The position numbers and the translations under genes were made by a program. Of a DNA stretch of 64,000 nt, positions 4,950-42,793 are shown one piece after another. Source of the DNA: Sphingomonas suaedae (GTDB taxonomy: Bacteria > Pseudomonadota > Alphaproteobacteria > Sphingomonadales > Sphingomonadaceae); the NCBI RefSeq assembly GCF_007833215.1, contig NZ_CP042239.1:2232001-2296000 (forward strand), written 5' to 3'. The notes beneath the pieces are model-generated. The model did not search any database and had not been told where the DNA came from. It saw nothing but the letters and a program-made list of their open reading frames with translations. Within the stretch, counting starts at the first letter, position 1. The number at the start of each line of letters is the position of its first letter.

Positions 4950-4963
4950 TGACACCGGTTACC
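4950..4963. promoter_or_regulatory. Putative LacI-type operator (TGACACCGGT) upstream of dhuI-kduD-kdgK
   Basis: TGACACCGGTTACC is identical over 14 bases to the site upstream of uxaC. It lies about 90 bases before the RpiB-family gene and about 8 bases after a TTGAAC box at 4937-4942 that could be a -35 hexamer. No convincing -10 is seen at the correct spacing. Confidence 0.72.
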
Positions 4964-5051
4964 TGCAAATCATCATCATTTTCGCCTAGAATGAGGCGCA
5001 ACCCGGCCGGAGTCGCCTGCCCGCGGGTCCCCCCAGAGAGGATTTGAAGCC

Positions 5052-5705: not shown

Positions 5706-5767
5706 TCGCCACCGCCTGACCATTCCCCTTCCCCCTCCCGCGCTATGGGCGGGGATCGGAGCCACGC

Positions 5768-27251: not shown

Positions 27252-27437
27252 GTTCGGCTTCAGCTGCGCTGAAACAACTCCAAATTGCGCAAGACCGGCA
27301 GGCCGCGCGATCAAAGAGTCCGGCAACCGTTCGAGACTCGTGAAAAGTGAACGATCCTGCCGTGACGGATCAATTCGCAATTGCGCCGGTCCGCGACTTG
27401 CCCAACGCTGGTCGCATTGGATCGACGGGAGGGCGGA

Positions 27438-29111
27438 ATGGCGCGCATCACTTACGAAACCCGCAAGGACTGGCAGAACTACCACCTTACGCTCACGAAC
27501 GATATCGACGATTACGGCATCTTCGATCGCGAGGAGGAAGGATGCTGCGCGAAGGGCTCGCCGCTGAGCGGCCCCGAGCTGTTCCGCGCGACCCGCGGCC
27601 CGCTGCACGACTATATCGCCAAGGCCGTGAAAGATCGCGTCGCCGCGGGGATGATCGGCCGCGCGTGGAGCTTCGCGCCGCTGGCCGGAAGCAACCGGCG
27701 CGAACTCGACCTGACGGGCCTGCAGGGCTGCACCCGCGCCACCGCCGCCGACCTTCATCCCGATTGCAGCGACGCGCCGGAGGACGTCGCCTTTGTTCGC
27801 GGCGGCACGACGCTGCGCTGCCTCGTCGAATGGGCCAAGAACCTGAGCCCGCGGCGCTCGATCATGACCAGCGGCACCCATCTCGGCCCGACGGTCGCGG
27901 GCGGGTTCGGCACCGCCAGCCATGGCTCGCGGCTGGGCTTTGGCGGGCTTCAGGACATGGTGATGGGGATGCACCTCATCACGGGGGAGAAGGAATCGGT
28001 GTGGATCGAGCCAGCGCGGGCGCCGGTGCTGAGTGGCGCGGCGGCATCCCGCTTCGCGACCCGCATCATCCGCTCCGATGCGATGTTCGACGATGCGCTG
28101 ATTCATCTGGGCGGCATGGGGATCGTCAACGGCGTCGCGCTGCGGCTCGCGCCTTATCACAGCTACAATGTTCTGGCCGTGGTTCACCCGCTCTGGCCCG
28201 ACTGGGAAGCGCAGGTCGAACAGGGGCGGTTCCGCGAGATTGCAGCACAGCTCGGCCATGATGACGATCCCGCATTCTACGAAGTGACGATCGATCCGTT
28301 CGACAATGACGGCACGCGCGACGCGATCCATCTGATGTACTTCATCGCCCCACCCGGGCTGCTTCCGCCCGATGGCGGCGATGGAACGCCGCTGCCGCAC
28401 GCGGGAGATTCGATCGCCGGATTCGCGAAGGAGCTTGTGCGACGCAAATCCGAGTCGGAGGCCCATGGTCTGTGGCCGGAAGGCTTTTCGGCGTTCAGCT
28501 ACTACAAGGGCCTTGTCCGCGAATTCTATGGCGCCTTCACGCTTCCGATCACGCCGGCCTCTCCCGCGCTGGGGTGGGAACATCTGCATCGCGATGTCGT
28601 CACCGGGAACGCTCCCGGCGCGCTCTACAATGCCTCTTATGCGATCCGGCGGGACGAGGTGGGCCGGGCACTGCCGCTGATCCTGTCGGCGGCACGCGAT
28701 CTGGAGCCTGCCTTCCTCAATACGATACGGTTCGTCACCCGCCCGTCCGGCACGCTCGCCTTCACCCGTTTCGAGGAGACTGCGGTGATCGAGATCGACG
28801 GATTGTCCGACAATTTGCCGGATGCCCTGCCCGATGAAGTGCCCGATGAAGCGCGCGCTTGGGGCGTATTTACCAAGACCGGCGCGATGAAGATCCGCAC
28901 GGAATTCGACCTGAACGGCATCGACTATTCGATGCACTGGGCGAAGCTGGGCCAGCTCGACGCGCCCAAGGTCGAACGCGATTTCGGCCCGCGCGACGAT
29001 CCCGCCTCCCCCATCGGCCGCTGGCGCGCGACCCGCACCGCGCTGCTGGCACCGGAAGCACGCGCGGTGTTCGTCAACGATGCGCTGCGGACCTACAAGC
29101 TCGTACCCTGA
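27438..29111 (+). CDS. FAD-linked oxidoreductase (VAO/PCMH family)
   Basis: A 557-residue flavoprotein. GRAWSFAPLAGSN, VRGGTTLRCLVEWA and SGTHLGPTVAGGFGTASHGSRLGF form the PCMH-type FAD-binding domain (residues of about 60-200) as in sugar-lactone and cholesterol oxidases. GGLQDMVMGMHLIT and FDDALIHLGGMGIVNGVAL continue it. The C-terminal half is the substrate domain. No signal peptide is seen, so it is probably cytoplasmic. ATG 27438 follows GGAGGGCGGA. The upstream 186-bp gap shows nothing else. Its place after the SARP-like gene suggests a link to the peroxidase operon, but that is only proximity. Confidence 0.8.
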   Translation: MARITYETRKDWQNYHLTLTNDIDDYGIFDREEEGCCAKGSPLSGPELFRATRGPLHDYIAKAVKDRVAAGMIGRAWSFAPLAGSNRRELDLTGLQGCTRATAADLHPDCSDAPEDVAFVRGGTTLRCLVEWAKNLSPRRSIMTSGTHLGPTVAGGFGTASHGSRLGFGGLQDMVMGMHLITGEKESVWIEPARAPVLSGAAASRFATRIIRSDAMFDDALIHLGGMGIVNGVALRLAPYHSYNVLAVVHPLWPDWEAQVEQGRFREIAAQLGHDDDPAFYEVTIDPFDNDGTRDAIHLMYFIAPPGLLPPDGGDGTPLPHAGDSIAGFAKELVRRKSESEAHGLWPEGFSAFSYYKGLVREFYGAFTLPITPASPALGWEHLHRDVVTGNAPGALYNASYAIRRDEVGRALPLILSAARDLEPAFLNTIRFVTRPSGTLAFTRFEETAVIEIDGLSDNLPDALPDEVPDEARAWGVFTKTGAMKIRTEFDLNGIDYSMHWAKLGQLDAPKVERDFGPRDDPASPIGRWRATRTALLAPEARAVFVNDALRTYKLVP

Positions 29112-29548
29112 GCTTCAGAGCGCGACAGCAAGTTCAGCCAGGTCCTGCAGCCCCCCGCTAAGACCGCCGGTCGGAACGGCCGGAACGTCGTCCAGCGCTG
29201 CCAGACATCGTCGGCGATCTGACCGCGCGGCAGGCTGTTCAAGAGGCCCTGGACGAAGAAGCGGGTACTGGCGGTGGAAAATAGTTCGTCCTGCTCGCCC
29301 CAGCTCGATCGATAGCGCCACCCGAACAGATCGTTTTTCGCGAGTGTCTGGGCTTCGCTGTCGAGTGCCCGGTCCAGGAAATTGAGCCGCTGGTGGGTCG
29401 GAAAAGTGAACGTGCCGAGATTGAGACCCGGCGTCGTGTCCGCCGCGAACCGCCCGCCCAGCGATTTGAGCAGACTATAAGCCTCCCCGCGGCGTAACCC
29501 GCCTTTCGCCTTGCCCTTCGGCTTGGGCTTGGCGATCGGCAACGTCAC
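29093..29548 (-). CDS. Small hypothetical protein with N-terminus abutting an IS remnant
   Basis: A 151-residue reading frame that I do not recognise. It has a basic Lys/Pro-rich start (IAKPKPKGKAKGG) and a rather ordinary, aromatic-rich globular middle (NLGTFTFPTHQRLNFLDRAL, TLAKNDLFGWRYRSSWGEQD, DDVWQRWTTFRPFRP). The composition suggests a real protein rather than a shadow. The GTG at 29548 lies directly behind the truncated transposase start, and the frame stays open upstream across the IS remnant. It may therefore be the surviving C-terminal part of a gene whose 5' end was lost when the IS decayed. It overlaps the FAD-oxidoreductase 3' end by 19 bp. Confidence 0.45.
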   Translation of the reverse strand: MTLPIAKPKPKGKAKGGLRRGEAYSLLKSLGGRFAADTTPGLNLGTFTFPTHQRLNFLDRALDSEAQTLAKNDLFGWRYRSSWGEQDELFSTASTRFFVQGLLNSLPRGQIADDVWQRWTTFRPFRPAVLAGGCRTWLNLLSRSEAQGTSL

Positions 29549-29568: not shown

Positions 29569-29690
29569 TAACGCCGCATCCGCGCCTCCGCCAACCAAAT
29601 CAGGTCGCTCATAACAACGCCTCCTCAGCGCCGCGAATGAATCCATCGAACATCCGATCGGCAAGCGATTTAATAGGTGCTGAACCTAGA
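29569..29690 (-). mobile_element. Decayed left end of an IS5-type insertion sequence
   Basis: On the minus strand a GAGGAGG ribosome site precedes ATG AGC GAC CTG at 29613, encoding MSDLIWLAEARMRR and then a TAA. IS5-family transposases characteristically begin MSDLFWLS(E/D)xQM. The leader GGTTCAGCACCTATTAAATCG before it looks like the terminal region of such an element. It starts within a few bases of the stop codon of the GMC oxidoreductase gene. The rest of the transposase and the other terminus are missing, so this is a relic. Confidence 0.6.
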
Positions 29691-31362
29691 TCGCGCCGGC
29701 CTTTAGCTGCCTGACTGCATGATCGGCCGCGCGTGCCGTCAGCGCCATGAAGGTGAGCGAGGGATTGACGCATGACACCGACGCCATTTGCGCGCCGTCG
29801 GTCACGAACAGATTTGCAGCGTCGTGGGCTTGGCTCCATTTGTTGAGCACCGCGTGGCGCGGGTCATGGCCCATGCGTGCGCCGCCCATCTCGTGGATCG
29901 CGTCGCCCGGCACATGCTCGCCGCGCCAGCTGTGCACGTTGAGCAGGCCCGCCGCCCGCAGCATCTTCTCGCCTTCGGCCCGCGCGTCGTCCATCATGCG
30001 AATCTCGTTTTCCCGGAACCGCACGTCGAAGCGCATCAGCGGAACACCGAACCGGTCGACCTTGTCGGCGTGAAGGCTGACGCGATTGTCTTCATAGGGG
30101 AGGCATTCGCCGAACGCACCCATGGCGAACTTCCACGGTCCATAGTCGCGCATGCCCTGCTTCATCGACGCGCCAAAGCCCTTGGGCGGGGCCGGCTCGC
30201 GCCGTGCGCTGCCCTGATAGCCATAGCCGCGGCGGAAGCCCACGCCTTCCTCGCCGCCGACATTGCGGAAACGCGGGATATAGACCCCGCCCGGCCGCCG
30301 GCCATATTCGATGAATTCGCTGAACCCCGGGATGTCGCCCGCCGCGCCGACGCGGAAGATATGGTCCATGACATAGCGGCCGAGCGTGCCGCTGCTGTCG
30401 AAATGGCTCTTGCCGCTGCCCGGCGCGCGCGAGTTCATCAGGATCTGGTTCGACGCCATCGCCGAGGCACAGAGGAACACCATCCGCGCCGGGATCACCT
30501 CGACCTGTTTGGTCTTGGCATCGACGACGCGCACGCCGGTCACGCGGCGGCGCGGCGCGTCATAGTCGAGGCTGGTGACCACCGAGTCCGGACGCAGCGT
30601 CAGCCGCCCCGTTGCGCGCGCGGCCGGCAGCGTCACAGCCTGGGTCGAGAAATAGGCGCCGAACGAGCAGCCGCGACCGCACTGGTTGCGATACTGGCAT
30701 TTGCTGCGACCCTGATCGGGCTTGTCCTCGGTCAAGTTCGACAGGCGCGAGGGGATCAGCTTGCGCCCCGGCGAACTGGCTTCGAGCTTTTCCTTCAGCC
30801 ATTTCTCCGCGACGTTCATCTGCATCGGCGGCTGGAAGAGGCTGTCGGGGAGCTGCGGCAGGTTTTCGCGCGAGCCCGATACGCCGACCACCTTTTCGAC
30901 ATAGTCATACCAGGGGGCGAGGTCATCATAGCCGATCGGCCATTCGCCATCGATCCCCTCGCGCTTGTTCGCCTCGAAATCCTCCGGGCTCCAGCGAAAG
31001 CTCCAGCGCCCCCAGATCAGCGACTTGCCGCCGAACGCGCCCGGGCGGATCCAGTAGAATTTGTCGCCCTCGCCATAGGCATAGGGGTTGAGCCGGTCGT
31101 TATTGTAGAATTTTTGCGAAGAGGGCGCGATGTAGCCGTTCTTCGCGATGAAATAATCGCTGTCGATCAGATGCTTGGGCATCATGTCGCGCGCGGGGAT
31201 CTCATATGCGGGCTTGCCGTCATAATCGTAATCCTGGCCGTGCTCGACCATGACGCCACGGTCGAGCATCAGCACGCGCAGGCCCTTTTCGGTCAGTTCC
31301 TTTGCCGCCCATCCGCCGCTCACCCCAGAGCCGATGACGATCGCGTCGAACATGTCGGCCAT
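29686..31362 (-). CDS. GMC-family FAD oxidoreductase, probable glycoside 3-dehydrogenase large subunit
   Basis: A 558-residue flavoprotein. The FAD loop is VIGSGVSGGWAAKELTEKG. The C-terminal GMC active-site region is GDAIHEMGGARMGHDPRHAVL and VSCVNPSLTFMAL with the His/Asn catalytic pair. A Cys cluster near residue 220 (SKCQYRNQCGRGCSFGA) resembles the iron-sulfur region of FAD-glucose dehydrogenase catalytic subunits. It has no signal of its own and would be carried across the membrane by the Tat-bearing subunit-3-like protein encoded at 32221. Substrate is probably C3 of glucosides. It is the last gene of the operon. An IS remnant touches its stop. Confidence 0.88.
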   Translation of the reverse strand: MADMFDAIVIGSGVSGGWAAKELTEKGLRVLMLDRGVMVEHGQDYDYDGKPAYEIPARDMMPKHLIDSDYFIAKNGYIAPSSQKFYNNDRLNPYAYGEGDKFYWIRPGAFGGKSLIWGRWSFRWSPEDFEANKREGIDGEWPIGYDDLAPWYDYVEKVVGVSGSRENLPQLPDSLFQPPMQMNVAEKWLKEKLEASSPGRKLIPSRLSNLTEDKPDQGRSKCQYRNQCGRGCSFGAYFSTQAVTLPAARATGRLTLRPDSVVTSLDYDAPRRRVTGVRVVDAKTKQVEVIPARMVFLCASAMASNQILMNSRAPGSGKSHFDSSGTLGRYVMDHIFRVGAAGDIPGFSEFIEYGRRPGGVYIPRFRNVGGEEGVGFRRGYGYQGSARREPAPPKGFGASMKQGMRDYGPWKFAMGAFGECLPYEDNRVSLHADKVDRFGVPLMRFDVRFRENEIRMMDDARAEGEKMLRAAGLLNVHSWRGEHVPGDAIHEMGGARMGHDPRHAVLNKWSQAHDAANLFVTDGAQMASVSCVNPSLTFMALTARAADHAVRQLKAGAI

Positions 31363-31384
31363 GCCGATCCCCCATTAAATCCGG

Positions 31385-32224
31385 TTACGCGCCGATCCGG
31401 CGCAGATGGTCGAAGCTTGCCTTGATGTCGGGCAGGTAGGGCGCAGGGGCCTGATCATTCTCGACATAGAGATGCTTGACGCCCGCCTGCGCGTTGAGCG
31501 TGAAGATATCCGCGAAATCGATCGTGCCGGCCCCGACGCTGGCCATCTTGCCGTCGGCGGTGCGATCCTTGACGTGATAGGCGTAGATGCGTCCGGGCAG
31601 GCGGGCGATCAGCGCCTTGGGATCCTCGCCCGCAGCGATCGCCCAGAACAGGTCGAGCTCGATCCCGACCAGCGCGGGATCGGCGTCCGCAACCAGCATG
31701 TCGAAGAGGCTGCGGCCCTCTGCCTTCACGGTAAATTCGAAATCGTGGTTGTGATAGGCGAAGCCCAGTCCCGCCTCCTTGAACTGCCCCGCCCAGCGGT
31801 TGAAATCGCCGATCGCGCGCTTGAACACCTGCGGGTCGCGCATCTCCGGAGTCAGCCACGGCAGGACGACCGTGTCGGCGCCCAGCGTCTTCGCCATCCG
31901 GACCACGGCGCCGAGATCGGCGGCCATCGCGTCGTACCCGACATGGATTGACGGGCTGACCAGGTCGAGCCGGTCCATCGCCTTGCGCAAGGCGGCGTGG
32001 TCCATCTTGTCATAGCCGCCGCCGCCATATTCGACCTCGCGATAGCCGATCGCCGCCACCTTCTCGAGCGTACCGATCGGGTCGGGAGCGAAGAGCTCGC
32101 GTACGGTATAGAGCTGCAAGCCGATCGGTCGCTTGGGCGTCCCGCGCGCCATCAGCGGTGCTGCGGCGAGGGTGGTGGCGAGCGCGGCACCGCCCGCCAG
32201 CCATTGGCGTCGGTCGATCTTCAT
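31385..32224 (-). CDS. Tat-exported TIM-barrel sugar isomerase/epimerase-like protein
   Basis: A 279-residue protein with a twin-arginine signal (DRRQWLAGGAALATTLAAAP). The AP-endonuclease-2/xylose-isomerase-like barrel is shown by GLQLYTVRELFAPDP, GYREVEYGGGGY, FAYHNHDFEF (metal-binding His), VGIELDLFWAI and YAYHVKDRT. Periplasmic members of this family accompany glycoside 3-dehydrogenases and are believed to isomerise or cleave 3-keto-glycosides. It overlaps the subunit-3 gene by 4 bp and lies 22 bp before the GMC gene. Activity is inferred from family and context only. Confidence 0.82.
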   Translation of the reverse strand: MKIDRRQWLAGGAALATTLAAAPLMARGTPKRPIGLQLYTVRELFAPDPIGTLEKVAAIGYREVEYGGGGYDKMDHAALRKAMDRLDLVSPSIHVGYDAMAADLGAVVRMAKTLGADTVVLPWLTPEMRDPQVFKRAIGDFNRWAGQFKEAGLGFAYHNHDFEFTVKAEGRSLFDMLVADADPALVGIELDLFWAIAAGEDPKALIARLPGRIYAYHVKDRTADGKMASVGAGTIDFADIFTLNAQAGVKHLYVENDQAPAPYLPDIKASFDHLRRIGA

Positions 32225-32781
32225 GAGGAAAACACCTTCGTGCCGGGGGAATAGGGGTGCGCGCCATCATATCGCCCCGGCACGGGCAGATAGTCGCGCT
32301 CCTGCGTGAGGCCGACTTCCGACGTGAAATAGCCGGTTATGACGAGCTGGCGAAATTTGTCGAAAAAGCTCAGGCCGCCTGGCAACTTGTCCTCCATCGC
32401 CAGCGTCAGCAGCGCATCCTGCTGCTCGGGCGACGCCTTGACCGCGGCCAGCTGGTAATCTGCCTGGCTGCGTGCCTCGATCGCATCGAGCCCGGCAAGG
32501 ATCGGCTTGCGCTCATCGGGCATCGCCCAATCGGCGAGCATCTTTTCGATGAACTCCGGCACGCCCGCCGCAATCGCGCCCGGAGTGTCGGTGGTCGGCA
32601 TGATGCGTTCGCTGAGCGCGCTCATCAGCGCGCGCTGCTCCGCGCTGAATACCGGCGCGCTCGGCGGGCCGTCGCTGATCGGCGTCACCTGCGCCGCCGC
32701 TGCACGCGCGATCGGCGCGAACAGCGCGGTGCCGAACATCGCCGCCATCCCGGCGAGCGCGTCGCGTCGGTCAAGTCTCAT
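32221..32781 (-). CDS. Gluconate-2-dehydrogenase subunit-3-like protein (Tat hitch-hiker subunit)
   Basis: A 186-residue protein with a Tat signal (RRDALAGMAAMFGTALFAP) and the typical subunit-3 body: LSERIMPTTDTPGAIAAGVPE, FIEKMLADW and FFDKFRQLVITGYFTSEVG. In FAD-dependent gluconate, glucose and glucoside-3 dehydrogenases this small subunit stabilises and exports the GMC subunit. The pair with the GMC protein is therefore very likely one enzyme, with the cytochrome c at 36906 as possible electron acceptor. Start and stop overlap neighbouring genes by 4 bp. Confidence 0.88.
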   Translation of the reverse strand: MRLDRRDALAGMAAMFGTALFAPIARAAAAQVTPISDGPPSAPVFSAEQRALMSALSERIMPTTDTPGAIAAGVPEFIEKMLADWAMPDERKPILAGLDAIEARSQADYQLAAVKASPEQQDALLTLAMEDKLPGGLSFFDKFRQLVITGYFTSEVGLTQERDYLPVPGRYDGAHPYSPGTKVFSS

Positions 32782-33614
32782 TTCTTCTCATCCTGCTGAT
32801 CGTGACTCGCCGCGGCTTCCGGAAGCGGGCGCACCCAGATGTTGCGGAACGACACCGGCGAATTGTGATCCTGCAGCTGGATCGGCGCGGCATCGCCATG
32901 TGCCTCGTACTTCGCGATCTGCCGCCACACGGTGGTGCCCAGCCAGGGCTGGCGGTTCTGGACCAGCACGCCGTTCAGGAAGGCGGTGATATAGGCCGGG
33001 CGCAGCAGCTTGCCGTCGGCGGCGAAGCGCGGGCGCTCGAAGACGATGTCGTAGCTCTGCCATTCGCCCGGCTTCCGCGACGGGTTCACCAGCGGCGGCG
33101 TGCTGCCATAGATCGCGCCGACCGTGCCATCGGCATAGGTCGGGTTGTTGTAGCCGTCGAGGATCTGGATCTCGTAGCGCTGCATGAACCAGATGCCGCT
33201 GTTGCCCCGATCCTGCGAGCTTTTCTCGGGCGGGTTCGGCGAGCGGAATTCGAGATGCAACTGGACGTCGCCAAAGCTCGCCTTGCTGATCAGTGCGTTC
33301 TCGCCGCCGCCCGCGCGCGGGCGCGACGTGACTGCGCCATCGGCGACCGTCCATGGCGTCTGCTGGGCCTGCCAGGCGTCGAGCGAGGCGCCGTCGAACA
33401 GAATGACAGCGTCGGACGGCGCGCCGCCGGGTTGCGCCGCCGGGGTCACGACGGTCGGGTGAGGCCGATCGGCGTCATGCACCTTCCAGCGGGTGCCGGG
33501 GATGGTCGGGGTGTCGCGGAAGCCGGGCTTGTCCTGCGCCGGGGCCGATTCGCTCGCCGCGGTCAATGCCAGTGCCGCAATCGGCAGAGTGAGTTTCACA
33601 TGCTTCCCCTTCAT
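32778..33614 (-). CDS. Secreted DUF1080 (3-keto-disaccharide hydrolase-like) protein
   Basis: A 278-residue secreted protein (LPIAALALTAASESAPAQ signal) with the DUF1080 concanavalin-like fold: LFDGASLDAWQAQQTPWTV, QLHLEFRSPNPP, GNSGIWFMQRYEIQILDGYNN and PAYITAFLNGVLVQN. DUF1080 enzymes are known to cleave 3-keto-glycosides by elimination/hydration. It sits between the hitch-hiker subunit and a TIM-barrel gene in a fully coupled operon. A GTG at 33599 with AAGGGGAA ahead is a good alternative start giving a cleaner signal peptide. The ATG at 33614 overlaps the upstream stop. Confidence 0.87.
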   Translation of the reverse strand: MKGKHVKLTLPIAALALTAASESAPAQDKPGFRDTPTIPGTRWKVHDADRPHPTVVTPAAQPGGAPSDAVILFDGASLDAWQAQQTPWTVADGAVTSRPRAGGGENALISKASFGDVQLHLEFRSPNPPEKSSQDRGNSGIWFMQRYEIQILDGYNNPTYADGTVGAIYGSTPPLVNPSRKPGEWQSYDIVFERPRFAADGKLLRPAYITAFLNGVLVQNRQPWLGTTVWRQIAKYEAHGDAAPIQLQDHNSPVSFRNIWVRPLPEAAASHDQQDEKK

Positions 33615-34519
33615 GCCGCGTCGATCGCGCGATAGGCGGCGAGCAGGCGCGCCTCGCCCGCGCGACCCTCGACCGAATTGCCATGTTCCATGCCGATCAC
33701 CCCGGAGAACCGCTTCGCGCGGAGCCAGCGGACGATGTTGGCATAGTTGATCTCGCCCGTCCCCGGCTCCTTGCGGCCCGGATCGTCGCCGAACTGGAGA
33801 TAGGCGATCTCGCTCCAGCAGCTGTCCATCGTTCGGATCAGATGCCCCGCCTGAATCTGCTCATGATAGAGATCGGCGAGGATCTTCACCGCCGGGCTGT
33901 CGACGCCGCGCGCGACCGCATAGCCCTGGGGCACCGTCTGCAGGAACACGCCTGGATGATCGACCAACGTGTTGAGCGGCTCCATCACCATCACCAGCCC
34001 GTGCGGCGCGACGAGGTCGGCGGCGTGGCGCATGGTATCGATCACCCGGCCGGTCTGGATATCGACCGGCACCCGACGATCGAGAAAGCCGGGGACTACC
34101 GTCATCCATTTGGCGTTCAAGCGCTTGGCGACGTCGATCGACGCGCGGATATCGGTGAGGAATGCGGTGCGGTCGCTATCGTCATTCGCCCCGAGCACCG
34201 GGCGAGATTGCACCCATTTGGGCATCGACGCTACGAACACGCCCATCGTCATGCCGCGCTGCTGCAGCGCCTTCGCCATCGCGACCTGTTCGGCGACCGG
34301 GCGGCTAGCGGCTTCGTTGTCCTCCCACGCGGTGAAGCCCTGGTCGGCGGCAAAGGCGATTTGTTCGAGCCGATTGCCCCGGCTCGCAAAACTGCCCTCA
34401 TGCGGCGCGAAGCCGAGCGAGAAGCGCGGTGCGTTCGATTGCTTCGCGGCGCCCGGCATTGCCGCCGCGCCCGCCATGGCGGCACCCGCAGCAAGGACGG
34501 AGCGCCGCGTCAGCCTCAC
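33611..34519 (-). CDS. Tat-exported hydroxypyruvate-isomerase-like TIM-barrel protein
   Basis: A 302-residue protein with a twin-arginine signal (TRRSVLAAGAAMAGAAAMPG). The barrel shows RFSLGFAPHEGSF, GFTAWEDNEAA, AKWMTVVPGFLDRR, GLVMVMEPLN (metal-binding Glu), KILADLYHEQIQAG and SGVIGMEHGNS. It resembles the hydroxypyruvate isomerase/2-keto-sugar isomerase branch of the family. With the two other barrels in the operon it may act on successive 3-keto-sugar intermediates. It overlaps both neighbours by 4 bp. Confidence 0.82.
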   Translation of the reverse strand: MRLTRRSVLAAGAAMAGAAAMPGAAKQSNAPRFSLGFAPHEGSFASRGNRLEQIAFAADQGFTAWEDNEAASRPVAEQVAMAKALQQRGMTMGVFVASMPKWVQSRPVLGANDDSDRTAFLTDIRASIDVAKRLNAKWMTVVPGFLDRRVPVDIQTGRVIDTMRHAADLVAPHGLVMVMEPLNTLVDHPGVFLQTVPQGYAVARGVDSPAVKILADLYHEQIQAGHLIRTMDSCWSEIAYLQFGDDPGRKEPGTGEINYANIVRWLRAKRFSGVIGMEHGNSVEGRAGEARLLAAYRAIDAA

Positions 34520-35817
34520 GCCGCTTCACCCGCCAGCTGCGCGCGCGACTTGCCGCGCTCCCGCAGCCAGATGAAGCCGAACACGACCAGCAGAACCGCC
34601 GGCAGGATCGCCAGCGTCCGGAACGACACCGACGCCGCCGCATCCTCGACCGCCAGCTTGGCCGCACCGGTCAGCGCGGCGAACGCCTCCGGTCCGCCTG
34701 CGAACTCGATCTTGGCAGCATCGAACATCGCGCCGAGCTGGGGCAGCACGAAGAAGCTGGCGAGCGCGCCGGCCGATCCGACCAGCCCCATCGCCCACGC
34801 CCCGCCGCGCGGATAGCGCTCGGCGACCGATGCGAGCATCGTAGGCCACATCACGCACACGCCAAGGCCCCAGACGGTCGCGGCGATAACCGCGGCGACC
34901 GGCGACTGCGCCTGCGACAGCATGAACAGCCCGATTCCGGCGAGCAGGCTCGACACCCACAGCAGGCCGGGGTTCGAGATGGTGTTGGCCAGCCGCCCCG
35001 CGAAATGGCGGAACACAAACATCAGCGCGTTGACATACACCAGCAGCAGGATGCCGCGCATGCCGACGCGGTTGGAGAGGGCCACGTCGATCCACTGGCC
35101 GGGTGCCAGTTCGGACGCGGCGGTGAGGAACATCGCGCCGAACCAGATGAAGAAGCTGGGGCGGCGGAACACCTCGCCGATCATCTGGCCAAAGCTCACG
35201 CCGCTTTCGCTGCGCAGCGGCGGCGGGAAGTGCGTGGTCGCCGCGACCAGGATCGTCGCGGCGGCGGGAACCATCACCAGCGCCATGATCCCCTGCCACG
35301 GCAGGGTCGCCGACAGGAAGAAGCCCGCCAAGCCGCCGATGATGATGCCGCCGGGAAACCAGGCATGGAGCACGTTGAGCCGATGGGTGGCGTCATCGGG
35401 GTAGAGTTGCGTCGTCAGCGGGTTGATCGCCGCCTCGGTCAGGCCCCAGCCGATTCCGCTCAGCAGCATCCCGACCCACACGATCGTGTAGATGGTCATG
35501 CCGCTCGCGATCTGGCCCGCCGTGACGATCAGTAACGGTCCGGCAAAGAAACACAGGCCAGCGGCCACCAGACAGCGCTTCATCCCGATCTGATCGAGAA
35601 ACGCGCTCGCGACGAACAATGTGATCGCGAAACTCAGGAACGCGGCGCCCAGCGCGGCGGCGATCAGCTCACCCGCCTGCAATGGGGCGATCGGGTCGAT
35701 CCATTCGGCCTTCAGGCCGCTGGCGATGGCCCCGCGGATTGCCAGCCCCGCTGCGGCGGTGAACAAGGCAAGGATGCCCAGCCAGAACAGCCGCCCCTTG
35801 TGATATGTCTCGGCCAT
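34516..35817 (-). CDS. MFS sugar transporter
   Basis: A 433-residue inner-membrane protein with about 12 hydrophobic helices, beginning with LFWLGILALFTAAAGLAIRG. The loop between helices contains HRLNVLHAWFPGG and a further WPTMLASVAERYPRGGAWAM, typical of the fucose/glucose-permease-like MFS branch. In this operon it would import the monosaccharide, keto-sugar or glycoside released in the periplasm. Coupled to the preceding barrel gene by a 4-bp overlap and 21 bp from the cytosolic barrel gene upstream. Confidence 0.88.
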   Translation of the reverse strand: MAETYHKGRLFWLGILALFTAAAGLAIRGAIASGLKAEWIDPIAPLQAGELIAAALGAAFLSFAITLFVASAFLDQIGMKRCLVAAGLCFFAGPLLIVTAGQIASGMTIYTIVWVGMLLSGIGWGLTEAAINPLTTQLYPDDATHRLNVLHAWFPGGIIIGGLAGFFLSATLPWQGIMALVMVPAAATILVAATTHFPPPLRSESGVSFGQMIGEVFRRPSFFIWFGAMFLTAASELAPGQWIDVALSNRVGMRGILLLVYVNALMFVFRHFAGRLANTISNPGLLWVSSLLAGIGLFMLSQAQSPVAAVIAATVWGLGVCVMWPTMLASVAERYPRGGAWAMGLVGSAGALASFFVLPQLGAMFDAAKIEFAGGPEAFAALTGAAKLAVEDAAASVSFRTLAILPAVLLVVFGFIWLRERGKSRAQLAGEAA

Positions 35818-35838
35818 CGCCGCCTCCCCCCTTTGTTT

Positions 35839-36882
35839 TTATGTCAGTCCCAGCATCGCGCGATTGAGCGCCGGATCGCTGCCCCCGGCGAAATCGTCGA
35901 ACGCCTTGTCTGCCTTGCGGATCATGTGCGCGGCGATGAAGGGTGCGCCCTCGCGGGCGCCGTCCTCGGGATGCTTGAGGCAGCACTCCCATTCGAGCAC
36001 GGCCCAGCCGGCATAGCCATATTGCGTCAGCTTGGAGAAGATTCCGCTGAAATCGACCTGCCCGTCGCCCAGCGAGCGGAACCGGCCGGGACGGTCCACC
36101 CAATCCTGGAACCCGCCATAGACGCCCGATCGCCCGGTCGGATTGAGTTCAGCATCCTTGACGTGGAACATCCGGATGCGCTCGTGATAGATGTCGATGA
36201 AGCTCAGATAATCGAGCGCCTGCAGCACATAATGGCTGGGATCGTAGAGGATGTTGGCGCGCGGGTGATTGTCCACGCCCGCCAGGAACCGCTCGAACGT
36301 CACGCCATCGTGCAGGTCCTCGCCGGGATGAATCTCGTAAGCGACATCGACGCCCTGTTCCTCGAACGCGTCGAGGATCGGCCGCCAGCGCTTCGCCAGC
36401 TCGCCAAAGGCCTCTTCGACCAGCCCCGCCGGTCGCTGCGGCCAGGGATAGAGATAGGGCCAGGCGAGCGCGCCGGAGAAGGTCGCGTGCGCGTTCAGCC
36501 CCAGCCGCCGGCTCGCTTTGGCGGCGAGATGAAGCTGCTCGACCGCCCATGCCTGGCGTTCCGCAGGCTTGCCCTTCAGCGCTTCGGGCGCGAAGGCGTC
36601 GAACGCCACGTCATAGGCCGGGTGCACCGCAACCAGCTGTCCCTGAAGATGCGTCGACAGCTCGGTGATCTCGACCCCAACCTCGCGGCACGTGCCGGCC
36701 AGCTCGTCGCAATAATCCTGGCTCTCCGCCGCCAGCGCCAGGTCGATACAGCGGCTGTCCCAGGTCGGAATCTGCACCCCGACATAGCCTGCCTCCGCCA
36801 TCCAGCGCGCAGCGGAGGGCAAGGTATCGAACGGCGCGGCATCGCCCATAAACTGTGCGAGGAAAACCGCCGGACCCTTCAT
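35839..36882 (-). CDS. Cytoplasmic TIM-barrel sugar isomerase/epimerase
   Basis: A 347-residue barrel protein without a signal peptide (start MKGPAVFLAQFMGD after GGAGGGGG). Metal-site sequences are VDVAYEIHPGEDLHDG, ANILYDPSHYVLQALDY, IRMFHVKDAE and GWAVLEWECCLKHPE. It contrasts with the two exported paralogues further along the same operon and would act on imported keto-sugars. The product pattern fits the sugar-phosphate isomerase/epimerase superfamily; substrate unknown. Confidence 0.85.
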   Translation of the reverse strand: MKGPAVFLAQFMGDAAPFDTLPSAARWMAEAGYVGVQIPTWDSRCIDLALAAESQDYCDELAGTCREVGVEITELSTHLQGQLVAVHPAYDVAFDAFAPEALKGKPAERQAWAVEQLHLAAKASRRLGLNAHATFSGALAWPYLYPWPQRPAGLVEEAFGELAKRWRPILDAFEEQGVDVAYEIHPGEDLHDGVTFERFLAGVDNHPRANILYDPSHYVLQALDYLSFIDIYHERIRMFHVKDAELNPTGRSGVYGGFQDWVDRPGRFRSLGDGQVDFSGIFSKLTQYGYAGWAVLEWECCLKHPEDGAREGAPFIAAHMIRKADKAFDDFAGGSDPALNRAMLGLT

Positions 36883-36905
36883 GACACCCCCTCCGCAGGT
36901 TTGAG

Positions 36906-37298
36906 CTACTTCGTTTCCGCTTTCAGATACGCGATCAGCGCGGCCCGACGCGCCGGATCGGGCACCTTCATCACCATGCGCGTGCCGGGCACAACCTTGG
37001 TCGGCGCGGCGAGATACGCGTCGAGCGTCTTCGCATCCCACACGATGCCGGACGCCTTGAGCGCCGGACTATAGGCGAACCCTGGCGCAGCTCCGGCCTT
37101 GCGGCCGAACAGCTTGTTGAGATTGGGCCCCATCACGCTCTTCCCGCCAGCGGGGAGCGTGTGGCAGGCGCGGCAGGCGGCGAAAGCCTGTGCACCGGGA
37201 GTCTGGGTCTGGCGCGCGCCGACGCTGGGCGCTCCAGCCGTTAGCGCTACCACGCCGAGGAGCGATGCCGCGAAGGGCAATGCGATGAGTGCTTTCAC
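36906..37298 (-). CDS. Small secreted c-type cytochrome
   Basis: A 130-residue protein from GTG 37298, chosen because GGAGGGG lies 3-9 bases upstream and because it places the signal peptide (ALIALPFAASLLGVVALTAGA) at the N-terminus. A single haem site AACRACHTLP (CxxCH) and an axial Met in GTRMVMKVPD mark a class-I cytochrome c. The spacing GPNLNKLFGRKAGAAPGF is the usual type. As first gene of the GMC operon it is the candidate periplasmic electron acceptor for the dehydrogenase. Confidence 0.9.
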   Translation of the reverse strand: MKALIALPFAASLLGVVALTAGAPSVGARQTQTPGAQAFAACRACHTLPAGGKSVMGPNLNKLFGRKAGAAPGFAYSPALKASGIVWDAKTLDAYLAAPTKVVPGTRMVMKVPDPARRAALIAYLKAETK

Positions 37299-37327
37299 AA
37301 TCCCCTCCGACTGTGCCAACCTTCGGG

Positions 37328-37343
37328 TTGACATCGTTGACAA
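37328..37343. promoter_or_regulatory. Palindromic putative operator between cytochrome c and Gfo/Idh genes
   Basis: TTGACATCGTTGACAA has 12 symmetric bases around a central CG (TTGnCAnCGnTGnCAA), the form of a LacI-family operator. It lies 30 bp before the cytochrome start and 77 bp before the divergent oxidoreductase. No regulator gene of that type is adjacent. Confidence 0.4.
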
Positions 37344-37419
37344 CATCTAAGCGGATGGCGGCGCGCAACGCAACCCCGCGAAACCGGGCGGGCGGAATTA
37401 GAGAAACAGGAGAGGCGCA

Positions 37420-38592
37420 ATGGAGACGGACGGACATCAACGCATTCGCTATGGCATGGTCGGCGGCGGCGAGGGCGCATTTATCGGCGCGGTGCATCGC
37501 ATGGCGGCCGCGCTCGACGGCGATTACGCGCTGGTGTGCGGCGCGTTCAGCAGCGACGCGGAGCGCGGGCGACGCAGCGGTACGGCGCTGGGCCTCGATC
37601 CGGCGCGCAGCTATCCCACGCTCGACGCCATGCTCGCGGGCGAACGTGCGCTGCCCGAGGGTGAGCGGATGCAGCTGGTGTCGATCGTCACGCCCAACCA
37701 TCTCCACGCCCCGGCAGCGATCGCCGCGCTCGATGCCGGGTTTCATGTGATCTCCGACAAGCCGATGGCGCTGAACCTTGCCGAGTCGCGGGCCATCGCG
37801 GCGGCGGTCGAACGCAGCGGCAGGCTTTACGGGCTGACCTTCACCTATAGCGGCTATCCGCTGGTCGAAGAGGCGCGGGTGCGGGTGGCGCGAGGCGATT
37901 TCGGTGCGATCCGGCTGGTGCAGGTCGAATATTCGCAGGGCTGGCTGAGCGGACCGCTGGACCGCGAAGGCAACAAGCAGGCGGAGTGGCGCACCGATCC
38001 GGCCCGCGCCGGTCTTGGCGGTTGTCTGGGCGACATCGGCACCCACGCCTTTCATCTCGCCGAACATGTCTCGGGTCTCGCGGTCGAGGAACTCAGCGCC
38101 GATCTCACCACCCATGTCCCCGGTCGCCGTCTCGACGACGATGTCGCGGCGCTGCTGCGGCTGGACGGCGGCGCGCGCGGCGTGCTCAAGGCGAGCCAGG
38201 TCGCGGCGGGCGACGAAAATGGCCTGCGCCTGCGTATCCATGGTGAGCGCGGCGGGCTGGACTGGTCGCAGATGGAGCCGAATACGCTCACCCTGCGCTG
38301 GCTCGATTGCCCCGCCGAGATCGTCCGCGCCGGCGGCCCCGGCCTCGCCCCGTCCACGCTGGCCATGCTGCGCACGCCTGCGGGGCACCCGGAGGGCTAT
38401 ATCGAGGCGTTCGCCAATCTTTACCGCAGCTTCGGGCGGGCCGTACGCGGCGGAGCGACTATACCCCCGCCGCGTGGCGCGGCAGACTGGTTCCCCGGTA
38501 TCTCCGACGGGCTGCGGACCATGGCGTTCATCGAGACGATGATCGAAAACAGCGCCGGCGCGCAGAAATGGACACGTCTTGCGCCGACCTGA
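37420..38592 (+). CDS. Gfo/Idh/MocA-family oxidoreductase
   Basis: A 390-residue cytoplasmic NAD(P)-dependent enzyme. The Rossmann loop is [17 protein letters not shown], followed by [21 protein letters not shown] and [13 protein letters not shown] with the catalytic Lys of the EKP-like motif (here DKP). [19 protein letters not shown] is the substrate-domain motif. These enzymes oxidise or reduce sugars at C3 or other positions. It is divergent from the keto-sugar operon and could reduce imported 3-keto-sugar or make it. Ribosome site GGAGAGG precedes the ATG. It is followed by a 401-bp stretch that holds a receptor relic. Confidence 0.9.
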
Positions 38593-38993: not shown

Positions 38994-41483
38994 ATGGCGA
39001 TCTGGATCGTTGCGCTCTTGGTTGGCGCTTTCGCGCTGGCCTATATCCAGGCGCGGGCGTTGCTTTGGCTGTCGGGCCTTGCCGGCTGGCTCGCTGTCGG
39101 CACCGCGTCGGGCTTGGTCGGCCCCACCGCCACGCTCGTTCTCGCCATCGCGCTGCTGCCGATCGTCATGGTCGCGCTCGTGCCGCTGCGTCGCGGGCTG
39201 TTATCGCGGCCGTTATTGACCGTGTTTCGCAGGATCATGCCGCGCATGAGCGCGACCGAACAGGCTGCGATCGACGCCGGAACGGTGTGGTGGGATGCCG
39301 AGCTGTTTGGTGGCGCGCCGCGCTGGCAGCGCCTGCTCGAAACCAGGCCTCCGAAGCTCACTCTGGAAGAGCAGCGCTTTCTGGACGAGGAGACCGAGCA
39401 GCTGTGCGACCTGTCCAGCGACTGGGAAAGTACGGCGGTCTGGCAGGACCTGCCGCCCGCTGCCTGGGCCTATGCGCGCGACAAAGGCTTCCTGGGGATG
39501 ATCGTTCCCAGGGAATATGGCGGGCTCGGCTTTTCCGCTTATGCGCAAAGCCAGGTGATCCAGAAACTCTCGACGCGCTGTTCGGCGGCGGCGGTTTCGG
39601 TGATGGTGCCCAATTCGCTGGGGCCAGCCGAGCTGCTGGTGCATTACGGCACCGAGGCACAGAAGCGCCACTACCTACCCCGCCTTGCCCGCGGAGACGA
39701 GATTCCGTGTTTCGCGCTGACCAGCCCCTATGCAGGTTCCGACGCCGCTTCGATCACTGATACCGGCATTGTCTGTCGCGGCATATGGCAAGGGCGCGAA
39801 ACGCTGGGATTTCGCATCAGCTGGAACAAGCGCTACATTACGCTGGCACCGATCGCGACGGTGCTGGGCCTGGCGTTTCGTGTGCAGGATCCTGAAGGGC
39901 TGCTCGGCGGCAAGGCCGATGTCGGGATCACCTGCGCGCTGATCCCGCGCGACCATCCGGGAGTCCGGATCGGCCGCCGCCACTGGCCGCTCAACGCCGT
40001 GTTCCAGAACGGTCCCACCTCGGGCGACGACGTGTTCGTGCCGATGGATATGGTGATCGGCGGGCAGGACCAGGTCGGCAATGGCTGGCGCATGCTGATG
40101 GAATGCCTGGCGGCGGGCCGCGCCATCTCGCTGCCGTCGTCCAATGTCGGCATGGCCAAGCTCGCAGCGAACAGCGTCAGCGCCTATTGCGCGTTCCGCC
40201 GCCAGTTCAACACGCCGATCGGCCAGTTCGAGGGCGCGCAGGAGCCGATGGCGCGAATGGCGGGGCATGTCTATGCGATGGACGCGACGCGCCGCCTCGC
40301 AGCCGCCGCGCTCGACATCGGCGAGAAACCCTCGGTCATTTCGGCCATCGCCAAATATCACGTTACCGAACGCGCCCGGATCGTGGTGAACGACGGCATG
40401 GACCTGATCGGCGGCAAGGGTATCTGCATGGGTCCGGGTAATTTCCTCGCCCGCGCCTATCAGCAGATCCCGATCGCGATCACGGTCGAGGGCGCGAACA
40501 TCATGACGCGCACGCTGATCATCTTTGGCCAGGGGGCGATCCGCTGCCACCCCTATGTCCTCGCGCTGATGCGTTCGGCAGAGGGGGGCGATAGCAGGGC
40601 GTTCGACCGCGCGCTGTTCGGCTATTTCAGCTTCCTGCTGTGCAATGCCGCGCGGGCGCTCGCGTTCGCCACGCCGCTGCGGCTGTTGATCGCCCGTCCA
40701 CATGGCGCGGCGCGGGAGCTTGCGCGCTATTATCGCGCCGCCACGCGGCTTTCGACGGCGCTGGCGCTGGCGAGCGACGTCTCGATGGCGACGCTGGGCG
40801 GGACCCTAAAGCGGCGTGAGACGATCACCGGGCGGCTGGGCGACGTGCTGTCGCAGCTGTTCATCCTGTCCGCTGTGCTGAAGCGCTATGAGGATGAGGG
40901 GCGTCCGACCGCCGACCTGCCGTTGGTTCACTGGGCCGCGCAGGACGCGCTGGCGCGCGCCGATACGGCATTGCGCGATACGATCGACAACCACCCCAGC
41001 GGCGCGGCGCGCTTTGTCCTGCGGCTGTTGATCCGACCGTTCGGCGGACGCATCGCGCCGCCCGACGACCGCGCCGACGCCGCGGTGGCGGCGCTGGTGC
41101 AGGCACAGGGTCCGGCGCGCGAGCGGCTGTTCGCGGGGTGCTGGACGCCCCGGATGGCGGTCGACCCCATCGCCGCGACACATGTCGCCTTCGCCCTGTA
41201 TCCCGCCGTCACGGCGATCGAGCAGCGGCTGCGACCGGACATCCGTACAGGCAGGGTCGCGCGTCTGCCGCAGAATTATCGCGAACTCGACGCCTGGGCA
41301 GCGGACGCCGAACGCGCCGGACTGATCAGCGCGGCAGAGCGCGGCGTGATCGCCGACTTCGCCGAACATGCCGATATCGCAATCCAGGTCGACGACTTCC
41401 CGCATGATTTCGGATTGGCCGAGGGGATGCGCCAGTTCGAGAACGCGGCCCGGTACCCTCATCCGGCTGAGGCTGCAGAATGA
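38994..41483 (+). CDS. fadE: Membrane-anchored acyl-CoA dehydrogenase (FadE)
   Basis: An 829-residue enzyme matching the size and layout of the enterobacterial FadE family (about 814). Two N-terminal membrane helices (residues 1-70) precede the acyl-CoA dehydrogenase body: DKGFLGMIVPREYGGLGFS, ALTSPYAGSDAASITD, ITVEGANIMTRTL. The last 300 residues are the DUF1974 domain typical of FadE. It performs the first beta-oxidation step at the inner membrane. The ATG follows GGAGGA. A palindromic operator is 24 bp upstream. It overlaps the next gene by 4 bp. Confidence 0.92.
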   Translation: MAIWIVALLVGAFALAYIQARALLWLSGLAGWLAVGTASGLVGPTATLVLAIALLPIVMVALVPLRRGLLSRPLLTVFRRIMPRMSATEQAAIDAGTVWWDAELFGGAPRWQRLLETRPPKLTLEEQRFLDEETEQLCDLSSDWESTAVWQDLPPAAWAYARDKGFLGMIVPREYGGLGFSAYAQSQVIQKLSTRCSAAAVSVMVPNSLGPAELLVHYGTEAQKRHYLPRLARGDEIPCFALTSPYAGSDAASITDTGIVCRGIWQGRETLGFRISWNKRYITLAPIATVLGLAFRVQDPEGLLGGKADVGITCALIPRDHPGVRIGRRHWPLNAVFQNGPTSGDDVFVPMDMVIGGQDQVGNGWRMLMECLAAGRAISLPSSNVGMAKLAANSVSAYCAFRRQFNTPIGQFEGAQEPMARMAGHVYAMDATRRLAAAALDIGEKPSVISAIAKYHVTERARIVVNDGMDLIGGKGICMGPGNFLARAYQQIPIAITVEGANIMTRTLIIFGQGAIRCHPYVLALMRSAEGGDSRAFDRALFGYFSFLLCNAARALAFATPLRLLIARPHGAARELARYYRAATRLSTALALASDVSMATLGGTLKRRETITGRLGDVLSQLFILSAVLKRYEDEGRPTADLPLVHWAAQDALARADTALRDTIDNHPSGAARFVLRLLIRPFGGRIAPPDDRADAAVAALVQAQGPARERLFAGCWTPRMAVDPIAATHVAFALYPAVTAIEQRLRPDIRTGRVARLPQNYRELDAWAADAERAGLISAAERGVIADFAEHADIAIQVDDFPHDFGLAEGMRQFENAARYPHPAEAAE

Positions 41484-42787
41484 GCGACCGCTATCTTGCC
41501 TTTGCCAATTCGGGCGTCGGCCACTGGCTCACCGGGGCGCTCGGTCTGCCGCAGCCGGTGCCGCTCGTGCGGAATCCCGGCAGATTCGTCGCCAGCGCAC
41601 GCATCGTCGATGTCGGCGAGGGTCGGTTGACAGCGCTGCTCGCGCGCGACGCGGCGGCGCTCGGCGTTCGCATCGACGATGCGGAAGGCCCCAATGTGCC
41701 CGACGCCCTGCTGGTCGATGCGACCGGCTGCCGTACCGTCACGGATAGCCGAGCGCTGTACCGGGTCTTTCACGATCATCTGCGCGCCGTGCAACCCAAT
41801 GGGCGCATCCTGATCTGCGTCGGCGATCCCGACGATGCGCCCGATGTCGAAGCGGCGGCCATCGCGCGCGGGATGGAGGGCTTCCTCCGTTCGCTGGCAA
41901 AGGAGGCGCGGCGCGCGATCGCGGCCAACATCATCCTCGTCCCCTGGAACGCGATGCCGACGCTCGCCAGCACGCTGGCCTTTTTCCTGTCGGCCCGCTC
42001 CGCTTATGTCTCAGGACAGGCCGTGCGGGTCGGACCCGCACCCGAGGCGAAGGCGGACAGGACCAGCCGGACGGTGCTGGTGACCGGCGCGGCGCGCGGG
42101 ATCGGCGCGGCGACTGCGACCAGCTTCGCGCGGGCGGGGGCGCATGTCGTCGCGCTCGATATTCCCGCGCTGTCGGACGAACTGGACGCTGTTGCCGCCG
42201 CGATCGGCGGCAGCACGCTCGCGCTCGACATAACCGCGCCCGATGCCCCCGCGCACATCGCTGCGGATGCGGCGACGCGCGGCGGTTATGACGTTGTCGT
42301 GCACAACGCCGGCATCACCCGCGACAAGACGCTGGCGCGGATGGATGCGCAGCGCTGGACGTCCGTCATGGAGGTCAATCTGGGCGCACCGATGCGGATC
42401 ACCGGAGCCCTGCTCGACGGTGGTCACCTTGCCGCCGGAAGCCGGATCGTCGGCGTCGCTTCCTTGAGCGGCATCGCGGGCAATGTCGGCCAGACCAACT
42501 ATGCGCTGTCAAAGGCCGGGGTGATCGGGTGGATCGAACGGCTGGCGCGCGAGGTCGCGGCGCGTGGCATCACCGCCAACGCCGTCGCGCCCGGTTTCAT
42601 CGAGACGCAGATGACCGCCGCCATCCCCTTCGCCATCCGCGAGGCGGGGCGCAGGATGAATTCGATGGGCCAGGGCGGCGCGCCAGAGGATGTGGCGGAG
42701 ACGATCGCGTGGCTCGCCGACCCGGCCAGCGGCGGCATCAACGGACAGGTGGTGCGCGTGTGCGGCCAAAGCCTGCTGGGCGCCTGA
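41480..42787 (+). CDS. High-molecular-weight beta-ketoacyl reductase (FabG4-type SDR)
   Basis: A 435-residue protein with two Rossmann units. The C-terminal half has the active SDR motifs: VLVTGAARGIGAATA, VVHNAGITRDKTLAR, catalytic Ser in GVASLSGIAGN and YALSK. The N-terminal 190 residues are a degenerate SDR/flavodoxin-like domain without the GxxxGxG loop. This architecture is that of mycobacterial FabG4, which reduces 3-oxoacyl-CoA with NADH. Here it would supply the 3-hydroxyacyl-CoA dehydrogenase step of beta-oxidation. It overlaps fadE by 4 bp and has 6 bp before the hydratase gene. Confidence 0.88.
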   Translation: MSDRYLAFANSGVGHWLTGALGLPQPVPLVRNPGRFVASARIVDVGEGRLTALLARDAAALGVRIDDAEGPNVPDALLVDATGCRTVTDSRALYRVFHDHLRAVQPNGRILICVGDPDDAPDVEAAAIARGMEGFLRSLAKEARRAIAANIILVPWNAMPTLASTLAFFLSARSAYVSGQAVRVGPAPEAKADRTSRTVLVTGAARGIGAATATSFARAGAHVVALDIPALSDELDAVAAAIGGSTLALDITAPDAPAHIAADAATRGGYDVVVHNAGITRDKTLARMDAQRWTSVMEVNLGAPMRITGALLDGGHLAAGSRIVGVASLSGIAGNVGQTNYALSKAGVIGWIERLAREVAARGITANAVAPGFIETQMTAAIPFAIREAGRRMNSMGQGGAPEDVAETIAWLADPASGGINGQVVRVCGQSLLGA

Positions 42788-42793
42788 ACGGTC

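Follow-up and report, generated by a model that had tools for sequence, protein, structure and literature searches.

The window considered here is a stretch of 64,000 nucleotides from Sphingomonas suaedae (contig NZ_CP042239.1, positions 2,232,001 to 2,296,000 of the forward strand). Between its positions 29686 and 38592 lie nine genes that probably encode a route for glycosides by oxidation, beta-elimination, hydration and reduction, with the steps split over the periplasm and the cytosol. Eight of them are found on the minus strand in the order cytochrome c, barrel A, major facilitator superfamily (MFS) transporter, barrel B, DUF1080 protein, dehydrogenase small subunit (Sub3), barrel C and GMC dehydrogenase, and a Gfo/Idh/MocA oxidoreductase gene is divergent from them. 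From homologies, active-site residues, N-terminal motifs, synteny and co-occurrence we infer which reactions take place, on which substrate, what is transported and what barrel B does; the four-step core follows from the matches of barrel A to a hydratase and of barrel C to a lyase. A preliminary description of this DNA had drawn a related scheme, in which a glycoside is oxidised at C3 in the periplasm, cleaved by the DUF1080 protein without a classical glycosidase, and the resulting keto-sugar is imported and reduced, all three barrels being isomerase-like. The LacABC-type dehydrogenase, the cleavage without a glycosidase, the transporter and the reductase are retained by homology; the wording for the barrels is not, since A is a hydratase and C a lyase by the same kind of evidence.

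Barrel A (35839..36882, minus strand; 347 amino acids) matches the solved protein 8ro4, named 2-hydroxy-3-keto-glucal hydratase, with an E value of 1e-174 over residues 1-346 of 347. No signal is seen at its N-terminus, and it is proposed, from its sequence, to be a cytosolic 2-hydroxy-3-keto-glucal hydratase. A scan of GTDB genomes with this hydratase gave at least 592 confirmed stretches, of which the best 80 (hereafter the named loci) were kept, a choice that biases them toward close relatives; a Gfo homologue was found within the fetched stretch in 71 of the 80. Barrels A and C were also considered as IolE (myo-inosose-2 dehydratase) and rejected, with 65.8 and 39.6 bits against a cut-off of 290 and better specific matches elsewhere. 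The generic isomerase reading of both was dropped because the hydratase and lyase matches are more specific.

Barrel C (31385..32224, minus strand; 279 amino acids, AP_endonuc_2 family, Tat-like N-terminus, that is, of the twin-arginine translocation type) is the candidate 3-keto-glycoside beta-eliminase or 1,2-lyase. A phmmer search returned AtOGE (8bvk, E 2.5e-24), followed by 8tcd, 8tcs and 8tct. The entry 8BVK is the structure of AtOGE, whose metal ligands are His132, Asp163, His189 and, weakly, Glu233, with His134 as the catalytic residue (PMC10628242, partial text). All five are kept in barrel C, as H158, D191, H217, E255 and H160, respectively, and E39 and H66, at the alternative metal position of AtOGE, have their counterparts in E65 (a pairing made by eye) and H94. 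The ligands and the catalytic histidine are retained by 95% or more of 32 aligned rows, and the 14 columns that are invariant in 29 exported and cytosolic homologues include H158, H160, D191, H217 and E255. A predicted model of barrel C (pLDDT, the predicted local distance difference test, 91.7) was compared by Foldseek with solved structures: the BT1 and AL1 3-keto-beta-glucopyranoside-1,2-lyases (8tct, 8tcd, 8tcr; 24-27% identity) occupy ranks 1-4 as the best fold matches and AtOGE ranks 6-7, with E values from 4.1e-19 to 2.4e-16, while ranks 5, 8 and 9 are Parabacteroides barrels without assigned function. The next enzyme of assigned function (E 8.4e-12) lies four to five orders of magnitude behind AtOGE. 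Barrel C is therefore proposed, by homology in sequence and predicted fold, as a 3-keto-glycoside lyase forming 2-hydroxy-3-keto-glucal. With a hydratase homologue and a lyase homologue among the barrels, cleavage need not depend on the DUF1080 protein.

The dehydrogenase has a LacABC-type make-up within one operon: the GMC large subunit (29686..31362, minus strand; 558 amino acids, PF05199 and PF00732 above cut-off), the Gluconate_2-dh3 subunit Sub3 (32221..32781, minus strand; PF13618, 125.5 bits) with its Tat-like start MRLDRRDALAG, and a cytochrome c with a signal-like N-terminus (36906..37298, minus strand; PF00034, 30.9 bits). The GMC protein begins at its own Rossmann motif and no signal peptide was seen by eye; it is presumed to be exported as a hitch-hiker with the Tat-bearing Sub3. 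Its best solved relative is the large subunit of fructose dehydrogenase (E 4.8e-37), and GMC together with Gluconate_2-dh3 subunits also composes glucose and gluconate dehydrogenases. The case for C3 oxidation of glycosides consists in the co-occurrence of this dehydrogenase with the hydratase and the lyase. The same genome holds a second, paralogous locus (L147, G000:C1:1922418-1928468) with Gfo (56%), barrel A (72%) and GMC (49%) homologues, an MFS_2 transporter and Sub3, and with no barrel C, barrel B or DUF1080 found in 19 kb. Extra pairs of GMC (70-71%) and Sub3 occur in two relatives that also have the full operon (L151, L152); hydratase or lyase was not detected near these pairs.

This co-occurrence was followed in 149 genomes of the family, the own genome included, with profile cut-offs of E <= 1e-80 for GMC, 1e-60 for barrel A, 1e-50 for barrel C and 1e-10 for PF06439, the family of the DUF1080 protein. 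The lyase profile found 25 genomes at E <= 1e-15, of which 22 were counted at E <= 1e-50 (G119, G067 and G081 were left out). GMC is present in 28 of the 149 genomes, barrel A likewise in 28, and both in 27 (Fisher p 2e-27, uncorrected for kinship). Barrel C occurs in 20 of these 27 core genomes and in 2 of the 122 others, and PF06439 in 16 of the 27 and in 6 of the 122; five core genomes have barrel C without PF06439, and one has PF06439 without barrel C. Among the named loci, 14 of 80 carry all three barrels together with the dehydrogenase, in Alphaproteobacteria, Gammaproteobacteria and Bacteroidota, so that the use of three different barrels is not the oddity it had first been taken for.

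The open reading frames (ORFs) and domains of the preliminary description were all recovered, in a tight operon with Gfo divergent. Four of the seven minus-strand junctions (MFS/barrel B, barrel B/DUF1080, DUF1080/Sub3 and Sub3/barrel C) are overlaps of 4 bases and the other three are gaps of 21-23 bases, which is consistent with one transcription unit. The operon lies in a genome of 4.15 Mb in one contig. All nine gene kinds recur in seven of the best 80 named loci (L003-L009), which argues that the layout is beyond chance; the order is identical to that of the window in five of the seven, L007 and L009 being sorted differently through over-long ORFs. An eighth such locus, L010, holds all gene kinds except DUF1080. 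The nearest named loci belong to Sphingomonas and Sphingopyxis. The cytochrome c ORF reaches 37346, and its start is probably the GTG at 37298: when the spacers of L003-L007 were compared, L004-L007 carried an ATG behind a GGAG motif at this position. With this start, the divergent spacer (37299..37419) measures 121 bases. LacI-operator-like palindromes were noticed by eye in the Gfo-cytochrome c spacers of L005, L008, L009 and L010 (TTTACCGGTAAA, TTTAGCGCTAAA, GTTAGCGCTAAC), and a LacI gene adjoins the L010 operon; unlike in these four, no palindrome was seen by eye in the spacer of the window, where a shared LacI-type operator was looked for.

Regarding the compartments, twin-arginine signals were recognized by eye at the N-termini of Sub3, barrel B and barrel C. 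Barrel C is Tat-like in all 18 named loci that have it together with GMC or Sub3 (19 proteins) and in 6 of the 12 that have it without either, some of these 12 being on short contigs (Fisher p 0.0016). From this pattern, the lyase tends to sit in the compartment of the dehydrogenase. If barrel A is cytosolic, the species crossing the inner membrane would be the enone glycal, so that the imported compound may be this glycal instead of a keto-sugar. The MFS transporter (34516..35817, minus strand; PF07690, 61.2 bits), found in the same place in related operons, is the candidate importer of the cleavage product.

The route may then be pictured as follows. In the periplasm, the complex of GMC, Sub3 and cytochrome c would oxidise a glucoside (or galactoside) at its C3 hydroxyl, feeding the electrons into the respiratory chain. 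Barrel C, exported by the Tat route and acting as a 1,2-lyase, would then expel the aglycone or second sugar and leave 2-hydroxy-3-keto-glucal, an enone sugar that the MFS protein would import. In the cytosol, barrel A would add water to it to give 3-keto-glucose, which the divergent Gfo enzyme (37420..38592, plus strand; PF01408 and PF22725 above cut-off), a candidate 3-keto-glucose reductase, would reduce to glucose. Two accessory periplasmic proteins probably assist: DUF1080, by cleaving those 3-keto-glycosides poorly handled by barrel C, and barrel B, by shifting or epimerising the keto-sugar.

Several observations weigh against this scheme. The main one is that 6 of the 27 core genomes have neither barrel C nor PF06439, so that cleavage in these six must fall to some other enzyme or to a bifunctional hydratase; partial bifunctionality has been reported for LgdB2 of B. 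smithii (PMC7676230, partial text). Four of the 22 named loci that carry GMC or Sub3 are without barrel C, and in one family genome (L109) the genes found within 16 kb are limited to the run from barrel B through DUF1080, Sub3 and barrel C to GMC, with barrel A elsewhere. DUF1080 alone could release 3-keto-glucose, making the glycal step a minor one. The substrate of the MFS protein is assigned from gene order, and the Caulobacter locus L043 has a transporter of another family, Nuc_H_symport. Finally, kinship was left uncorrected in all co-occurrence counts, and the Tat calls come from a motif rule of our own script rather than from a trained predictor; a first version of this rule labelled L029 cytosolic and L056 Sec, both of which were changed by the final rule.

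The DUF1080 protein (32778..33614, minus strand) has a Sec-like start by eye and passes the cut-off of PF06439, the 3-keto-disaccharide hydrolase family, with 142.7 against 26.8 bits. Its closest solved relative, 4qhz (E 4.3e-54), is named only as a putative glycosyl hydrolase, and in 14 control genomes PF06439 matched, at E <= 1e-10, in Caulobacter vibrioides only. Together with barrel B, this protein looks like a separable accessory cassette. A barrel B match at E <= 1e-20 is found in 23 of the 149 family genomes, with at least 71% identity in eight (the own genome included) and 42-46% in one (G047), and DUF1080 adjoins barrel B in all nine; the remaining 14 genomes have only matches of 28-39% identity, show no DUF1080 within the short stretches fetched, and were not counted as barrel B. 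Wider stretches of the seven other genomes with at least 71% identity hold all nine genes in L110, L111 and L113, the nine minus a detected cytochrome c in L112, and minus a detected MFS gene in L108 and L114, L109 being the reduced case given above. In L148 (G043) and L149 (G123) the core genes are present and the pair is absent between MFS and Sub3, a different DUF1080 (46-47% identical) being found downstream of the operon. Conversely, L115 (G047) has the pair without the core, amid GH43, alpha-galactosidase and sulfatase genes and a weak TonB-plug match, and L010 has barrel B without DUF1080. A second DUF1080 gene of the S. suaedae genome (G000:C1:2822132-2822773; L001, L116), 26% identical, lies about 2 kb from a Gfo/Idh/MocA gene, perhaps with another Gfo-type frame between. 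In L148, around positions 3774-6100, DUF1080 adjoins a Gfo/Idh ORF that includes a twin-arginine-like stretch close to its probable start; this Gfo may be an exported one.

Barrel B (33611..34519, minus strand; 302 amino acids, Tat-like N-terminus, PF01261 with 100 bits) is the barrel to which the isomerase-like description still applies. Among family models it scores best with those for hydroxypyruvate isomerase (2.9e-35) and 2-oxo-tetronate isomerase (2.3e-31), and it remains under the curated NCBIfam cut-offs of both (121.8 versus 353.45 and 109.5 versus 325 bits, respectively). In its predicted model (pLDDT 79.7, with residues 1-34 below 50), 3ngf and 1k77 come first among the fold matches, followed by ketose 3-epimerases and UlaE, and YcjR, a 3-keto-D-glucoside 4-epimerase, appears at structural rank 11 (E 2.7e-13) and matches in sequence with E 5e-7. 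Residues E180, D216, Q242 and E278 reproduce the Glu, Asp, Gln and Glu of the 3ngf and 1k77 sites, the positions of the metal ligands of the group, and Glu180, Asp216, His219 and Glu278 are invariant across 15 rows. The protein thus has in common with the group of hydroxypyruvate isomerase and YgbM (OtnI) the site residues, a PGRxEPGxGE motif and the nearest fold, and differs from it in the Tat-like signal, the glycoside operon and the scores below cut-off. A role as a second eliminase was rejected: the His-Asn-His motif is absent, with E180-P-L-N183 in its place, and no lyase was among the 50 chains listed in the fold search.

The distribution of barrel B makes it a recurrent exported enzyme tied to GMC-type loci. 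After inspection of the active-site columns it was counted strictly in 15 of the 80 named loci, that is, in 14 of the 22 with GMC or Sub3 and in 1 of the 58 others (L059, a short contig). A looser profile also caught L022, L030, L031, L032, L047 and L073, which were removed as other barrels; keeping all 21 would give 16 of 22 against 5 of 58. A second, distant set of exported barrels of this group occurs in loci of Paraglaciecola, Marisediminitalea, a gammaproteobacterial metagenome-assembled genome, Hymenobacter, Mucilaginibacter and Niastella, and all six carry GMC, lyase and hydratase homologues. In a tree that leaves out L059, L031 and L032, this set and the sphingomonad barrel B form separate clades. 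A single origin was weakly rejected (p-AU 0.0385, approximately unbiased test), with long branches and in a test chosen after the tree had been seen, so that it is a hint only; perhaps the exported fold was recruited to such loci twice, in sphingomonads and in the locus type of Bacteroidota and Alteromonadales. Relatives at E <= 1e-40 are found in 5 of 289 genomes of the class, two of the own genus and three with 36-38% identity in other settings; the neighbours of the cytosolic relatives point to no substrate, and a survey of the open-licence literature yielded no paper naming the sphingomonad operon or the role of barrel B.

Two roles can nonetheless be proposed, on the basis of a keto shift and a lyase selectivity reported for C-glycosides: the 3-keto forms shift spontaneously to 2-keto forms, and the lyase PuCGE does not use 2-keto-nothofagin (PMC10628242, partial text; PMC13273386). 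In the first, which is a tentative possibility, barrel B would epimerise 3-keto-sugars at C2 or C4 in the periplasm, in the manner of YcjR, and would widen the substrate range by supplying galacto- or manno-configured sugars to a gluco-specific lyase. The structural and sequence matches to YcjR and the invariance of E180 and E278 in the 15 rows are in line with it; however, barrel B is nearest to the hydroxypyruvate and oxo-tetronate isomerase-like proteins by sequence, fold and tree, and position 242 is Gln, not His. In the second, which seems doubtful, barrel B would be a keto-shift isomerase that returns the spontaneous, lyase-resistant 2-keto-glycosides to the 3-keto form. The chemistry of hydroxypyruvate and 2-oxo-tetronate isomerases is a carbonyl shift between adjacent carbons, and these are the best models of barrel B, but its scores are well below both curated cut-offs and its tie to DUF1080 would be left unaccounted for. 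Besides, the shift has been reported for C-glycosides, and both 2-keto- and 3-keto-puerarin are consumed, the former, in the authors' view, because it reverts rapidly and spontaneously to the latter (PMC10628242, partial text); a repair enzyme may therefore not be needed. A two-compartment pathway combining such an exported 2-keto to 3-keto repair isomerase with an enone-sugar transporter is, taken as a whole, rather improbable. If true, keto-shift repair would add to oxidative glycoside cleavage a step that the literature surveyed does not describe for it.

Turning from barrel B to the route as a whole, an unlikely alternative is that DUF1080 is the main cleaver, so that 3-keto-glucose formed in the periplasm is imported and reduced while the barrels act as isomerases of side products. 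The name of PF06439 speaks for it, as do the adjacency of DUF1080 and barrel B in the nine family genomes and the importance of the DUF1080 protein CCNA_01705 for lactose in Caulobacter (PMC9007349, partial text). Nevertheless, it would leave the hydratase and lyase homologues idle, although these are of the core and DUF1080 is not: it is absent in L010, represented only by the 46-47% homologue downstream in L148 and L149, and without any PF06439 match in 11 of the 27 core genomes, and the window protein is distant from the solved 8rr2 (E 3e-4; 3-keto-disaccharide hydrolase domain-containing) and 9fbe (E 3e-3). Of the cleaving function first given to this protein, the family assignment is upheld and the main role probably is not, since the protein is missing from L010, from the operon site of L148 and L149 and from five core genomes that have the lyase. 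That the dehydrogenase acts on free sugars, on polyols or on alcohols of another kind, with the barrels reworking the products, for example in an inositol or ketose pathway, is very unlikely, given that its relatedness to fructose dehydrogenase, the use of GMC and Gluconate_2-dh3 in glucose and gluconate dehydrogenases and the weak IolE matches of barrels A and C are set against IolE scores far below cut-off (65.8 and 39.6 versus 290 bits), a full-length hydratase match, an intact lyase site and the presence of the hydratase in 27 of the 28 GMC genomes.

The oxidation, elimination, hydration and reduction core favoured here would not be new in itself: by comparison, it appears to be the pathway already known from A. 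tumefaciens and B. smithii, and the operon to be related to the Caulobacter lac locus and the Agrobacterium operon. The GlycDH-AtOGE-AtHYD-Gfo operon of A. tumefaciens carries out the same four steps as proposed here with a homologous eliminase; its description comprises no more than one flavin dehydrogenase, two barrels and one Gfo enzyme, and the text mentions neither DUF1080 nor the periplasm (PMC10628242, partial text). The barrel C match starts at residue 8 of AtOGE, so that the solved AtOGE chain is too short at its start to include an export signal. The lgdA-lgdB1-lgdB2-lgdC genes of B. smithii also encode the four steps, two of the enzymes being labelled 'sugar phosphate isomerase' and the reductase being of the Gfo type, but differ in the NAD-dependent first step, the ABC transporter genes nearby and the anhydrosugar substrate, levoglucosan (PMC7676230, partial text). 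Genetic work in Caulobacter has identified lacABC, DUF1080, a transporter, a reductase and 'two sugar epimerases' as important in the use of lactose, with the fate of the keto-sugar called unknown (PMC9007349, partial text). The C. vibrioides locus L043 has the order transporter, Tat-motif barrel C homologue, Gfo, barrel A homologue, cytochrome c and GMC; Sub3 and DUF1080 lie close by. These are the gene kinds of the operon except for barrel B, which is absent from the 21 kb fetched, and for the family of the transporter; the gene order differs, a LacI regulator adjoins, and identity to the window is 34% for barrel C, 48% for GMC and 74% for barrel A. From this gene content, the two 'epimerases' of Caulobacter can be read as lyase and hydratase, now named by homology and each with a proposed compartment. 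Another sphingomonad, N. rosa, has been listed as 3-ketolactose-forming (PMC5443232, partial text). Enzymes for oxidising C3 selectively and for deglycosylation without hydrolysis may also be obtainable from the operon.

As to the genes around the operon, acyl-CoA dehydrogenase, short-chain reductase and MaoC-like genes adjoin it at 38994-43684 (plus strand), with no link seen. Directly downstream of the operon is a 151-amino-acid ORF without a Pfam match, which may not be a gene (29093-29548, minus strand). Beyond it lie a 576-amino-acid protein of no Pfam family, with a weak FAD-linked (flavin adenine dinucleotide) oxidoreductase match only (27381-29111, plus strand), a 589-amino-acid protein without a Pfam match that is regulator-like by eye (25482-27251, plus strand) and a protein of the animal haem peroxidase family (PF03098; 23712-25160, minus strand).

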